Source: Pirellulales bacterium (lineage in GTDB: Bacteria; Planctomycetota; Planctomycetia; Pirellulales; JALHPA01). From it: DNA of 64,000 bases. Every line of letters begins with the position of its first letter. The stretch's first letter is position 1. The notes under the pieces were generated by a model. That model was not told where the DNA came from, did not search any database, and saw only the letters and a list, made by a program, of their open reading frames with translations. Where the stretch lies: positions 124,001 through 188,000 of the forward strand of contig JANRLT010000044.1 in NCBI GenBank assembly GCA_033762255.1, read 5' to 3'. The translations under genes were made by a program, and so were the position numbers. This document shows positions 8,547 to 40,894 of this stretch, one piece after another.

Positions 8547-9605
8547 ATGTTGCATCGACGTCAATTGTTGCAAAATACGTTAGGCGCGTTGGCCGCGGTT
8601 TCCGCCAGCGGCTTGGTGGGGGGATTGCCGACTGCTTCGGCCTACGACGAAAAGCAATACGAACGAATCGTGAATGGCGGGTGTGACTGGATCGCCAAAA
8701 CCCAAAGTAACTCCGGGGGCTGGACCGGTGCCCAAAGTTCTTACCCCACGGCCATGACCGCGCTCGCCGGAATGGCCCTTATTTGCCACGGCTCCACCAC
8801 CACCCAGGGGAAATACTCCGGCGCCTTGCGCAAATGCGTGGATTACCTTTGTGCCAAGTCCCGCTCCAATGGGCTGATCGGCGATCCCAAATCCGACGAC
8901 CGCTACACCTATGGGCATGGCTACGCGATGATGTTTCTCTCCCAAGTCCTCGGGGAGGAAGAAGACATTCAACGCCGCCAGGAATTGACCGAAGTGCTAA
9001 AGGCTTCCGTCAAGTTTTGCATTCAGGCGCAGACCTCTTCTGGCGGCTGGGGGTATGTGAGCGCCAAAGAGGGGGGGGACTTTGACGAAGGCTCCACCAC
9101 CATCACCCAGGTGCAGGGGTTGCGCGGCTGCCGGAACGCGGGAATTCCCGTGCCCAAGGAAGCGATCGACAAGGCGATCAAATACATTCAAAAGTGTACC
9201 TTGTCGGACGGGGGGGTACAGTACAGCGCCAAGACCGGCGGCGGGGGGCGGCCCCCGATCTCGGCGGCGGCGATTGCGTGCCTGTACAATGCCGGTGATT
9301 ATGACGACAAGCTGGTCCCCAAGATGCTAGAGTATGTGAAAAAGCATTATCAAAGCGTGGGGAGCGATAACGACGGGCACTGGCATTACGCCCATTATTA
9401 CTACGCGCAGGTTGTTTATCGCGAAGGGGGTAAGCTATGGCAGGAATACCGCGATAAGATGTACGTGCGGCTGATGAACGAGGCCAAGTCCGACGGCAAG
9501 GTGCATTACTGGGACCAGGGGTATATTGGCCCGATCTATACGACTTCGATCAACCTGACGATCTTGCAACTGGAAAAGGCGTACTTGCCGCTATATCAGC
9601 GGTAG
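8547..9605 (+). CDS. Exported prenyltransferase/squalene-oxidase-repeat protein
   Basis: A 352-residue protein from ATG 8547; an upstream start at 8487 would precede the signal with an odd leader. It begins LHRRQLLQNTLGALAAVSAS, a twin-arginine-like signal. The body is an alpha/alpha toroid built of repeats with Gly-Gly-Trp motifs (SNSGGWTG, SSGGWGYV, LSDGGVQYS), as in terpene cyclase and prenyltransferase beta-domain families. The acid-rich catalytic motif of true squalene-hopene cyclases (DxDDTA) is not seen, so a binding or structural role outside the cytoplasm is more likely than cyclase activity. Homologues of this layout are known to me from planctomycetes. It is monocistronic. Confidence 0.78.
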   Translation: MLHRRQLLQNTLGALAAVSASGLVGGLPTASAYDEKQYERIVNGGCDWIAKTQSNSGGWTGAQSSYPTAMTALAGMALICHGSTTTQGKYSGALRKCVDYLCAKSRSNGLIGDPKSDDRYTYGHGYAMMFLSQVLGEEEDIQRRQELTEVLKASVKFCIQAQTSSGGWGYVSAKEGGDFDEGSTTITQVQGLRGCRNAGIPVPKEAIDKAIKYIQKCTLSDGGVQYSAKTGGGGRPPISAAAIACLYNAGDYDDKLVPKMLEYVKKHYQSVGSDNDGHWHYAHYYYAQVVYREGGKLWQEYRDKMYVRLMNEAKSDGKVHYWDQGYIGPIYTTSINLTILQLEKAYLPLYQR

Positions 9606-11137: not shown

Positions 11138-11797
11138 ATGAATCGGACATTTTTTGCGTTTTCATTGGCCTTGTGGGGAGCCAGCTGGGCTTGCTTTGTC
11201 CAAACCGGCCGCGCAGGGACATTTACGCTGGATCCAGATAATTATGCCCCGCAGACCGACCTGCGCACGATCGATCCCAATGTAACGTTGCGGGTCATTG
11301 TGAACGAGACCTTTCCCACCCCTTTTGCCGTTACCGCCAATCCGGACGAGAACAACTCCACCAGCCCGCACGTCTTTGGCCATGCGAACGTTCCCTTTTG
11401 GAATGAGAATCGCCGGTTGGAAATGAATTTTAACGCCCCCACCACCAATGTGCAGATCGACTTTATCGGAGCGAGCATCTTTAGTGATTACATTGGTCAG
11501 TTGGATGTATACAGCGGCCCAACACTCTTGTTTAGTTACCAGACGCCTCCGCTGGGAGATAACGAAATCCGCACGCTGACCGCTTATCGCGCTGGGGGAG
11601 ACATCACCCGCGCGGTCGCCTATACCCCAGTCAACGGCAATTCTCCCTTTATGCGGCTCGATCACTTGGTTTATTCAACCGTTCCCGAGCCATCCACCTG
11701 GTGCCTGGGCGTGCTGGGCCTGGGGGGAATGTTGGCCTTTGCATGGAATCGTACGGCTAAGCCGCAGAGTCGATCGGTTAAACCGCAGAGGCACTGA
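11138..11797 (+). CDS. Small exported PEP-CTERM protein
   Basis: A 219-residue protein with AGGAG at the right distance before ATG 11138, a signal peptide (residues about 4-27) and a single beta-rich domain with a membrane-adsorption or lectin-like look (LEMNFNAPTTNVQIDFIG). A PEP-CTERM signal follows near residue 183 (STVPEPSTWCLGVLGLGG). After its hydrophobic helix the tail reads TAKPQSRSVKPQRH; these last codons coincide with a repeated DNA word (CCGCAGAG...CACTGAG), so the very end of the gene seems to be formed by an intergenic repeat. The function is unknown. Confidence 0.78.
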   Translation: MNRTFFAFSLALWGASWACFVQTGRAGTFTLDPDNYAPQTDLRTIDPNVTLRVIVNETFPTPFAVTANPDENNSTSPHVFGHANVPFWNENRRLEMNFNAPTTNVQIDFIGASIFSDYIGQLDVYSGPTLLFSYQTPPLGDNEIRTLTAYRAGGDITRAVAYTPVNGNSPFMRLDHLVYSTVPEPSTWCLGVLGLGGMLAFAWNRTAKPQSRSVKPQRH

Positions 11798-37207: not shown

Positions 37208-37308
37208 GTAGCAAAACTTGCAGAAAGTTCCGTGCTTTTACTGTAGCGGAACTTACCAAAAGTTCCGTGGCCTGACGTAAAGACCAGAATTCTAGCGAAT
37301 TCCGCTAC
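37208..37308. repeat. Palindromic GTAGCGGAA element with a half copy in front
   Basis: 37243-37308 has inverted ends GTAGCGGAA and TTCCGCTAC as in the element at 13341-13399; 37208-37235 looks like a degenerate left half of a second copy. It lies between the cyclophilin gene and tRNA-Leu. Confidence 0.8.
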
Positions 37309-37452
37309 TGGGGAAGGACCTTCGCCGGAAACCAACTCATTCAAGATCAAATGGCAAACTGTGCAGAGCCGGGGTCTTGCAAAACACCCCGGTTGGTGAA
37401 TAATAAAAAACTTGCCCGCAATTTGCGTCCCTTGGGCCGCAAATTGCCCTTA

Positions 37453-37535
37453 GCCGGAGTGGCGGAATGGCAGACGCGCTAGACTCAAAATCTAGTATCC
37501 TCACGGGTGTGTGGGTTCGACTCCCACCTCCGGCA
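37453..37535 (+). tRNA. tRNA-Leu (anticodon CAA)
   Basis: 83 bases with acceptor GCCGGAG paired to CTCCGGC, long variable arm (TATCCTCACGGGTG), anticodon arm CTAGA-CTCAAAA-TCTAG (anticodon CAA) and T-arm GTGGGTTCGACTCCCAC. The discriminator is A. An AT-rich gene follows 55 bases downstream. Confidence 0.97.
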
Positions 37536-37590
37536 AATTCCAAATTTTTCAAACACCTGCAACGATAGGATTTTTGAAGGAGTGAACACG

Positions 37591-39927
37591 GTGTGGAATT
37601 TGATGTATTTTTTTACTAGAATACTAAACTTCAGAGTTATTGTTGCTTTCTACGTCTTTGGATATTTTTCTAGCGTACAAGTCTTTGGAGATGATTCTAA
37701 ATCCTGGAGTTCCTTTCGGGGAGGAACAAGATTAGGAAATAATGGCGAGCAAGTATTACCGTTAGAATGGTCTGCACAAAATGGACTTAACATTAAATGG
37801 CATAAAGAAATTAATGGTATTGGCCACTCCTCTCCTGTCATCTACGATAACAAAATATTAGTTACAAGTGCTTTTCAAGACGACAGTCACGTTTTCAGGA
37901 AAAAAGCAATAGTTGCAATAGAATCATTTTTAATGGCACTTGCATTCATTATGTTAGTAAAATACACTTTGCATGACACTCGCGATATACTGGATAACTC
38001 ATTTTTAATTACTCACATAATGATCTACATAATGTACTTTCTATCCTTGATTTTTACAATTAATGGTGAAACTTTATTTGACTACGCAAGATGCCCTATC
38101 CGGTATTGGATAGGACTACATATAACTATATTAATTAATGTAGTTTTAACCTCAACATTATTTCCGGCTCAATCAAAATGGAATCCAGGCCTTGGATTAG
38201 CAGCTTTATTTCTCATAGTGCTATACTTTTACTACTTGCCCAATCGTGAACATATTTGGCGTAATGGATTTATCTCCGCTAATGGAATTATAGGAATAAT
38301 AACTCCAGTAATACTCCTTGTTTATTCAATACTAATCTTAACTAGGTATTTTTGCGCAATTCGAGAGCACAAAAAAGCAACTAGTCGTATCTTTATTACC
38401 GTAAGTATATTTTTTCTTTTTACAGTTGTGATCTCATCAATTATTGCTGCCTTTTTCATACTCACAGTTGACACTAGCTTGAAAGCCCCTACATTTAGTT
38501 CAATGATTTCATGGTTAACAATGGTTACATTTTTTTCTATACCATTACTATTGTGGATTCGCGTGTTGATGATTAACAATTTATATGATGGCACAACAAT
38601 CTCTGATTATGGATATTATAAAGTTGCCATTACAGTTTTCTGTGCACTTACTTTTATTATTTTTTGTTTTGCTTCATGTTACAATACTGTACAGTATTGC
38701 ACATTTCTAACCTATCATTTTGACGGTTTTTCACTGTCGAAAGCGTACTTACATCCTGCAACAATACTTTATGCCAGCATAGTTACACTACTTGCCGGAT
38801 TATCCCTAACAATTCGTATTGCCGGACTCAAAACAATCCTACCTAAGTGGAATTTTCACGTTAATTTCTTAAGGCACATTATTATTGTATTATTATTTAT
38901 ATCTATAGCTGTAAGGGCAATCGTCTATTTGAACGACAACATCCAAAATATCCTTGGTTGTTGTGTAACTTGCTTAGATGCTAACACAGGAAAAGTTTCT
39001 TGGGAATGGAAGGGGCTATACGGAAAGAAAGAAATTATTCACCGAGCAAATAGTCATGCAACAGCAACACCTGTTGTTTATCAAGATTCTGTGATAGCTT
39101 ATTTTGGAAACAAAGCGATGATATGTATTGATCGTAATGGTAAACTAAAATGGAAGAATTCCAACTTAACACATGAGAGTGCATATGGCTATGGTAGTTC
39201 GCTAGTTCAGTATGATGGAATTGTGATTATCTGCTGTGGGGGACCAAAATCTTCTATGATCTATGGAATAGATGCCGACACTGGAAATATTTTATGGCAA
39301 TTCCGATTACAACATTACCCTAACAAAGTTAGTGGTCTCAACAGAACACCTACAATTCTCAACAAAGATCAGATTTACTCAGTCTTAGTATGGGATGTTG
39401 CGCAGGCTGTACTTTTGGATTTAAAAACGGGTAACTTACTTGATACCATCACTTTAGAAGAATCTTATGGTGACATGGTTAGTAGTCCTGCTTCTCAAAA
39501 TAATAAATTTTACACTGCCAATACTCAATCTATTGAGTCTTTTGATATTAATTCTAGCTCAATGTTTGATAAAAATAGCAAATGGAGAATCCACTCTTCG
39601 GGTGCTAACTGCTCTTCCCCCGTCATTTGCGGTAAGAACCTCTTTTGCATATCAGACCGAGGCATACTTTCATGCATAGATACAATTTCCAGAAAACAAG
39701 TAAAAAAAATTCGTCTTTCAGGCACATTTTATTCTAGCATAATATCATCTTCGAACTACATTTATGTTACTAATACCGATGGTGTAACATATGTAATAAC
39801 TGCTAACAAAAACATGACTCTTGTTTCTCATAATGACCTGGGGGAACCTGTTTACGCAACAATTGTTCCACACGCAGACAAGCTGTATATTCGAACTATC
39901 AATAGTGTATATTGTATTGCGAAGTAA
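37591..39927 (+). CDS. PQQ-like beta-propeller protein with an internal multi-span membrane block
   Basis: 778 residues from GTG 37591, chosen because AAGGAG (37577-37582) is 8 bases before it; ATG 37603 is the alternative. A first membrane helix or signal is at about 8-30. Propeller strands then start in the style of planctomycete PQQ-like proteins (WSSFRGGTRLGNNG, LPLEWSAQNGLNIKWH, IGHSSPVIYDNKILVTSA). They are interrupted by about ten membrane helices (about 95-455), after which strands resume (CVTCLDANTGKVSWEW, ATATPVVYQDSVIAYF, IYGIDADTGNILWQF, CSSPVICGKNLFCI). The gene is strikingly AT-rich: in 38401-38460 only 16 of 60 bases are G or C. This suggests transfer or a distinct lineage. The function is unknown. 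Confidence 0.75.
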   Translation: MWNLMYFFTRILNFRVIVAFYVFGYFSSVQVFGDDSKSWSSFRGGTRLGNNGEQVLPLEWSAQNGLNIKWHKEINGIGHSSPVIYDNKILVTSAFQDDSHVFRKKAIVAIESFLMALAFIMLVKYTLHDTRDILDNSFLITHIMIYIMYFLSLIFTINGETLFDYARCPIRYWIGLHITILINVVLTSTLFPAQSKWNPGLGLAALFLIVLYFYYLPNREHIWRNGFISANGIIGIITPVILLVYSILILTRYFCAIREHKKATSRIFITVSIFFLFTVVISSIIAAFFILTVDTSLKAPTFSSMISWLTMVTFFSIPLLLWIRVLMINNLYDGTTISDYGYYKVAITVFCALTFIIFCFASCYNTVQYCTFLTYHFDGFSLSKAYLHPATILYASIVTLLAGLSLTIRIAGLKTILPKWNFHVNFLRHIIIVLLFISIAVRAIVYLNDNIQNILGCCVTCLDANTGKVSWEWKGLYGKKEIIHRANSHATATPVVYQDSVIAYFGNKAMICIDRNGKLKWKNSNLTHESAYGYGSSLVQYDGIVIICCGGPKSSMIYGIDADTGNILWQFRLQHYPNKVSGLNRTPTILNKDQIYSVLVWDVAQAVLLDLKTGNLLDTITLEESYGDMVSSPASQNNKFYTANTQSIESFDINSSSMFDKNSKWRIHSSGANCSSPVICGKNLFCISDRGILSCIDTISRKQVKKIRLSGTFYSSIISSSNYIYVTNTDGVTYVITANKNMTLVSHNDLGEPVYATIVPHADKLYIRTINSVYCIAK

Positions 39928-39949: not shown

Positions 39950-40894
39950 CTACCCGCTCTCCGGCATAAATGTGGGGATGACCACGCCTTTTAACTCCTG
40001 TGCGGCGCCGTGGACCTGCAGCACATGCAACTCGACATTCTTCGCACCCCAATCGTACATCCCCCGCACCAGGCGTGGGCGGTCCGCCGGTACCAGAACC
40101 ACGGGGGACCAATCGCGACGGCGGTTGAGGGCATAGGGTAATAGCGCGAGCGCGGTTTCTTCGTCCCGCATGACACCGGGGCCCGCCAGCGTGCTGCCGG
40201 GATGCTGGATCGTCACCAAAAATCCAGCCAATTCTCCCGCGGCATCGATCGCCACGCTGGTTTGCCAGCAGCCCAAATGGTTATCGTGAAAGTAAATATA
40301 ATCCCCGGGACGGGAGATGCCAACCAATTGTTCCTCTAGGGCCGTCATGGCCGCCAAGTCCGCTTTTTCAGCGGGCCGCAGTTGCCATCCGGTCGGCGGG
40401 GGGGATTCGGGAAGTCCGCTATGCGGCACATGGATCAACAAATCCTGAAAAATCGCCCGGGGACTAAATCCCTGCCGTGTATACAGCGAAAAGGAATCCA
40501 AGTTTTGCGCGCTTGACACCAGCCGCACGCTTTGTTGGCGTTCCCGGGCAAAGTTGACGATCCAGGCCAGCAATTTGCCCGCCACTCCCCGCCCAAACGC
40601 GTGAGAAGCGACATTCATGATTCCCAGGGAGACATGCGTGGGCCGGGGGTGATAAAAGCACGAGCCCAGCAGTTGTTCCGTGGCCGCATCCGCCGCGACC
40701 AGGCAGCAGCCCGGGTCCAGGTCTTCATAGACTTGCGGAAACAGCAGTGTCGCCTCGGGGGGACCGGTAAAAATAGGAGGCTTACCGTGGGCGACATACC
40801 AGGCGTTGGTCGATTCACGAATTAGTTCCGCCACCGCAGGCCATTCATCGGGCCGTAGGGGACGCAGTTCCAGTGCTGGGGCTTGGCAGGTCAT
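39950..40894 (-). CDS. GNAT-family acetyltransferase with two GNAT-like domains
   Basis: 314 residues. The N-terminal half (LRPLRPDEWPAVAELIREST to NLDSFSLYTRQGFSPRAIFQDL) is a full GNAT fold with the acetyl-CoA site near VASHAFGRGVAGKLL. The second half (LRPAEKADLAAMTALEEQLVGI to the end) looks like a partial GNAT repeat with a DNHLGCWQTSVAI segment. Two-domain GNATs of this type act on small molecules, but the substrate is unknown. It converges with the AT-rich gene, 22 bases away, with no terminator hairpin seen between them. Confidence 0.8.
   Translation of the reverse strand: MTCQAPALELRPLRPDEWPAVAELIRESTNAWYVAHGKPPIFTGPPEATLLFPQVYEDLDPGCCLVAADAATEQLLGSCFYHPRPTHVSLGIMNVASHAFGRGVAGKLLAWIVNFARERQQSVRLVSSAQNLDSFSLYTRQGFSPRAIFQDLLIHVPHSGLPESPPPTGWQLRPAEKADLAAMTALEEQLVGISRPGDYIYFHDNHLGCWQTSVAIDAAGELAGFLVTIQHPGSTLAGPGVMRDEETALALLPYALNRRRDWSPVVLVPADRPRLVRGMYDWGAKNVELHVLQVHGAAQELKGVVIPTFMPESG

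Follow-up and report, generated by a model that had tools for sequence, protein, structure and literature searches.

The membrane-bound PQQ glucose dehydrogenase (Gcd) has a periplasmic PQQ-type propeller that is covalently joined to several helices. In Gcd about five helices stand ahead of the propeller, whereas the protein described here has ten nested inside a propeller blade and scores below the cut-off of the PQQ-enzyme model. 7TMR-DISM receptors also combine a periplasmic beta domain with several helices; they have seven helices, a cytoplasmic output domain and a different periplasmic fold, and the only match to them, by one member, had an E-value of 4.7. BamB, a lipoprotein of the outer-membrane assembly machine, is the nearest solved eight-bladed fold (Z about 25), but our protein falls far below the BamB cut-offs, has ten inserted helices, and no lipoprotein cysteine was seen in it. 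The soluble planctomycete propellers of the PQQ_2 family (PF13360), of which there are many per genome, belong to the same family and share the N-terminal motif WxxFRG ... SSPV ... T. They are in register with our protein on both sides of the insert, but they lack the membrane block and carry other residues at several positions of the propeller face. To our knowledge, there is no earlier example of a polytopic membrane domain that lies inside a propeller-blade hairpin and is kept across distant relatives, and a limited literature search found no paper on such an architecture.

The stretch of DNA analysed here (the window, 64 kb) is taken from contig C44, bases 124001-188000, in a planctomycete draft genome of 5.5 Mb that consists of 72 contigs and is 96.6% complete. 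The features relevant to this study are as follows.

37453..37535, + strand: tRNA-Leu(CAA), with no second match in the genome at E <= 1e-6
37591..39927, + strand: gene of the split-propeller membrane protein, 778 aa, GC 0.35
37591..37686, + strand: N-terminal hydrophobic segment, putatively for export, residues 1-32; from hydropathy, in all four homologues
37705..37878, + strand: first part of the propeller, residues 39-96, with the WSSFRG start and the strands before the insert; aligned with soluble paralogues
37879..38949, + strand: predicted ten-helix membrane block, residues ~97-453; from hydropathy in four homologues and helices in two models
38080..38115, + strand: signature DYARCPIRYWIG, residues 164-175, in the predicted periplasmic loop that joins helix 2 to helix 3, reaching into the start of the latter; positions invariant in four homologues
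38959..39924, + strand: remainder of the propeller, residues ~457-778; PF13360 (PQQ_2)
39959..39966, + strand: CTCCGGCA, repeating the final 8 nt of the tRNA (37528-37535); candidate insertion-site repeat, suggestive only

The gene begins with a GTG start codon preceded by AAGGAG and contains no internal stops. The initial annotation had placed it 55 bases behind the tRNA gene and had described it as far more AT-rich than both neighbours, with 16 of 60 bases being G or C at 38401-38460. The spacing is correct (the tRNA ends at 37535 and the coding sequence starts at 37591), and recounting the printed sequence gave the same number of G and C residues. When compared with the 36 other ORFs of the window, the gene deviated strongly in both GC content (0.35 versus 0.566 ± 0.034, z −6.4) and GC3 (0.30 versus 0.654 ± 0.053, z −6.7), and the fit of its codon use to that of its neighbours was similarly poor (z −5.8). 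The low-GC stretch begins directly 3' of tRNA-Leu and ends at approximately the stop codon of the gene. Upstream, between an isomerase gene and the tRNA, two 27-nt copies that are 81% alike and 35 nt apart were observed around AGTTCCGTG (37208-37269). Immediately 5' of tRNA-Leu (37418-37447) lies an almost perfect inverted repeat, whose 14-nt arms are separated by 2 nt; it is a possible terminator or regulatory hairpin.

Alignment with soluble planctomycete propellers located the insert. Residues 39-96 align with the start of the soluble proteins (WSSFRG ... W ... GHSSPV ... VTSA), and residues ~457-778 (CLDANTG...) align with the remainder. At the site of the insert of ~360 residues, soluble relatives with a clean alignment have between 0 and ~50 residues, and the insertion point corresponds to the turn between strands B and C (the second and third) of blade 1. 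A search of the host genome with the whole protein gave 28 matched stretches, mostly in other ORFs of ~430-500 aa, and the split-propeller gene itself is present in a single copy. Soluble propeller paralogues are numerous in this genome (e.g. G000:C25:64385-65680 and G000:C6:48699-69673). These alignments, together with the hydropathy profile, confirm the earlier description of a soluble-type start followed by a hydrophobic block and a return to the propeller in register. The hydrophobic N-terminus suggests that the propeller is exported.

Profile searches assigned the propeller to PF13360 (PQQ_2/BamB-type beta-propeller; 54.2 bits versus a cut-off of 27.6). Scores were below the cut-offs for the BamB equivalogs TIGR03300 and NF008351 (35.5 versus 285.2 bits and 35.8 versus 423 bits, respectively) and for the PQQ-enzyme propeller profiles PF01011 (16.6 versus 26.7 bits) and TIGR03075 (22.2 versus 480.05 bits). 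Judged by these curated cut-offs, the propeller is a PF13360 member and is neither BamB nor a PQQ dehydrogenase. The membrane block gave no credible match in Pfam, NCBIfam, PHROGs or PDB sequences, in line with the earlier suggestion of an undescribed class; the best hits in Pfam, NCBIfam and PHROGs (E 0.04-0.05) were to unrelated small membrane families and were below cut-off. Plasmids and phages likewise yielded no credible match to the block, phage matches at E 0.3-0.5 being rejected, and no relative was found among viral contigs.

The profile scores bear on the possibility that the protein is a membrane-tethered oxidoreductase similar to glucose dehydrogenase, in which the propeller would oxidise a periplasmic substrate and the helices would pass electrons to quinone. 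A PQQ-type propeller joined to helices, the weak PF01011 and TIGR03075 matches, and conserved His, Cys and Arg residues on the predicted periplasmic side would all agree with such an enzyme. However, the PF01011 score is under its cut-off, and the helices are nested in the propeller rather than placed ahead of it. An adjacent Cys-Cys pair (residues 457-458) that recalls methanol dehydrogenase was considered and rejected, as the pair is not conserved in the homologues, which also counts against this function. We regard an oxidoreductase of this type as improbable.

The hydropathy profile displays ten further hydrophobic segments behind the N-terminal one, spanning residues 105-447; the initial annotation had estimated about ten helices. 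If the propeller is exported, an even number of helices brings the chain back to the periplasm, as a split propeller requires. The distribution of charged residues is consistent with this topology: summed over the four proteins, the predicted cytoplasmic loops contain 62 K/R in 340 residues and the predicted periplasmic loops 26 in 286, an excess that holds in spite of conserved arginines on the outside. The block motifs common to the four homologues are DYxRCPIRxWxG, P...H and L..H. Twelve of the 18 invariant block residues lie in predicted periplasmic loops and none in cytoplasmic loops. The invariant residues W173, G175 and P217 are placed at periplasmic helix ends, R103 just ahead of helix 1 on the periplasmic side, and A118 and A352 within helices. 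The predicted topology thus places the propeller on the periplasmic side, together with almost every invariant polar residue of the block. The helices themselves diverge fast (14-24% identity). The block is a membrane domain of no recognised family, marked by the distinct signature DYxRCPIRxWxG and by a well-delimited set of conserved residues.

The initial annotation had suggested a sensor or transporter, and neither is favoured. None of the predicted cytoplasmic loops exceeds 37 residues and the C-terminus is predicted to be periplasmic, so that the protein lacks an output domain in the cytoplasm, which speaks against a receptor. A sensor could in principle signal across the membrane via a partner protein, and periplasmic propellers do serve as sensor domains elsewhere, but on inspection the four loci share no neighbour gene; together with the missing cytoplasmic domain, this makes a sensor very unlikely. 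In a transporter or channel, the ten helices would form the translocation path and the propeller would gate it or deliver the substrate. Ten helices is a common size for a carrier, and a lid over the membrane domain, as proposed below, would suit this function. The near absence of invariant polar residues within the helices, which a conserved transport path would be expected to carry, speaks against a classical carrier, and no match to a carrier family was obtained; we consider transport unlikely.

We next consider the distribution of the family. A whole-protein search of 97 genomes identified one full-length relative with 32% identity (G448:C324, the same record as CAMFLN010000324.1, L045), and a profile of the two blocks searched against 396 genomes of the order identified two further relatives, in G680 and G657. 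The three full-length homologues (about 22-32% identity) come from three other families of the same order. The order of parts is identical in all four proteins, with an insert of 354-378 aa; hydropathy gave ten block segments for three proteins and, for the fourth, in which helix 3 is just below threshold, nine. The same plan in three distant homologues is more than chance or a frame accident would produce. The odd composition and the single copy in the host genome could be taken as signs of an artefact, that is, an assembly fusion of two genes or a decaying chimera, but the same plan, open frames and aligned motifs in three other genomes render this explanation extremely unlikely.

In a tree built from propeller columns, the four split proteins formed one branch with 100/100 support against 28 soluble propellers; the window sequence is biased in composition and several branches are long, which weakens the branching order within the four. 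As the split proteins form a single clade, the insertion is most simply explained by one event. It follows that an inner-membrane protein can arise, most simply via a single insertion, from a widespread family of secreted propellers of which planctomycete genomes contain many copies. Besides the window genome, full matches were present in at least 1 of 119 genomes of family f18, at least 1 of 72 of f8 and at least 1 of 5 of f20, these counts being lower bounds since the first filter of the search passes on a restricted set of candidates for scoring. No full match beyond the window was found in samples of the class (347 genomes) and the phylum (343 genomes). The three other carriers are draft bins that are 74-78% complete, with the gene on contigs of 5-10 kb, and thus their genome assignment rests on binning. 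From these results we conclude that the gene represents a genuine family of membrane proteins, which is rare and apparently undescribed.

Several weaker candidates were discarded. With the block alone as a single query sequence, searches of 39 relatives and of 392 genomes from the phylum returned only a chance match, a membrane plus TPR protein in G037. Profile matches in G628, G477 and G479 (E 2e-4 to 7e-4) were without the motif, and as one or two such matches are expected by chance in ~1,280 genome searches by block profiles, they were rejected. The G479 locus (L053, G479:C140:1609-2025) appeared DUF420-like by eye; its weak match to block helices 5-8 (E 7e-4) was judged to be probably due to chance.

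Two AlphaFold runs with two sequences each yielded mean pLDDT values of 50 and 49, whichever sequence was placed first. Both runs agreed on the strands before and after the block and on about ten helices; the packing of the helices, and of the propeller against them, is unreliable. Most parts of the block were modelled at pLDDT under 50, and the fold search was dominated by the propeller. VIA-align matched the window model to whole BamB and to designed propellers of the eight- to ten-blade type with Z about 25 over ~320 residues, and the model ranges, which were the only alignment detail given, mostly begin at residues 36-78, ahead of the insert. These results support the view that the first strands are part of the propeller but fall short of proof; stronger evidence for it comes from the alignment with soluble relatives. 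The earlier idea of a split propeller closed across a membrane domain is therefore backed by homology as well as by rough models.

Conserved residues were then used to examine which face of the propeller might meet the block. Behind the insert, all four split proteins share fourteen invariant propeller residues that are rare (15% or less) in the 28 soluble ones. Nine of these 14 fall in D-A loops, whereas the A-B and C-D loops contain none of them (hypergeometric p 0.011, from four sequences and strand limits taken from a weak model). The D-A and B-C loops of a propeller are on the same face. Because the block leaves from a B-C loop and thus shares a face with the D-A loops, that face would have to meet the membrane domain. 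Moreover, a hairpin that leaves and returns on one face implies that this face looks at the membrane, so that the propeller would sit as a lid.

We propose that this is an inner-membrane protein in which a periplasmic eight-bladed propeller of the BamB/PQQ type is threaded via one hairpin of blade 1 into a ten-helix domain, such that the propeller may cover the helices as a lid on their periplasmic side. In the block, conserved residues (D164, Y165, R167, C168, R171, H221 and H376) would face Y532, R585, D628, C674 and others of the propeller, and the facing residues of both parts may constitute one joint site. This site would bind or process a ligand that arrives from the periplasm or from the outer lipid leaflet. 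The data appear to fit best with a site that binds a ligand or acts as an enzyme where the outer side of the membrane meets water. We assign a rough probability of 0.4 to this reading as a whole, i.e. a propeller lid on a periplasm-facing ten-helix domain with a joint ligand site, encoded by a gene from an AT-rich donor. A bolder version, according to which these proteins are a new membrane protein class with a ten-helix domain of new fold in a blade and a single periplasm-facing site, moving between planctomycete lineages as a single-gene unit, is tentative and probably too strong.

Alternatively, the block could simply be an elaborate anchor, by which a BamB-like propeller that binds proteins is kept at the inner membrane. 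The closest solved fold, BamB, is itself a scaffold, and the fast divergence of the block helices would be expected of an anchor. One helix would be enough for this purpose, however, and the predicted periplasmic loops of the block have retained two His residues and a strict DYxRCPIR motif; a scaffold is consequently an unlikely explanation.

The remaining element of the lid and joint-site reading is the origin of the gene. The initial annotation had proposed gain by transfer, and this is likely given that the composition is far out of range, that the gene was not found in G001 and that its distribution in the order is patchy. It had also held that equally AT-rich homologues of the same architecture at this locus in all close relatives would refute recent transfer; no match was found in G001, the only other genome seen from the family of the window, which is fairly distant and 73% complete. 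We therefore consider that the gene was probably acquired from an AT-rich donor. No such donor was found, the known homologues being on contigs of 54-68% GC.

The evidence that tRNA-Leu served as the landing site is weak. In favour of this claim, CTCCGGCA at 39959-39966 begins 31 bases past the stop codon and is the only other + strand copy of the tRNA end in the 64 kb; given its rarity, the chance of a copy this near lies roughly between 1 in 100 and 1 in 1000, although the repeat was sought after the sequence had been seen. Against it, no integrase was recognised by eye among the ORFs of 34-44 kb, and no tRNA is next to the three homologues on the contigs examined. No longer repeat of the tRNA end was detected, nor was a 23-bp copy with up to 3 mismatches. 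Acquisition of the gene stands as likely, and its link to the tRNA is weak. No empty site was found in relatives, a comparison that carries no weight since the genes at their tRNA-Leu loci are unlike the neighbours in the window save for a short peptidyl-prolyl isomerase match, and in the relatives looked at the peptidyl-prolyl isomerase gene is not followed by tRNA-Leu. In another genome (G019, contig C154), a partial tRNA-Leu copy consisting of the first 39 nt with 97% identity (8834-8872) lies 2.8 kb before a full copy (11667-11747) and could mark an insertion at the same tRNA.
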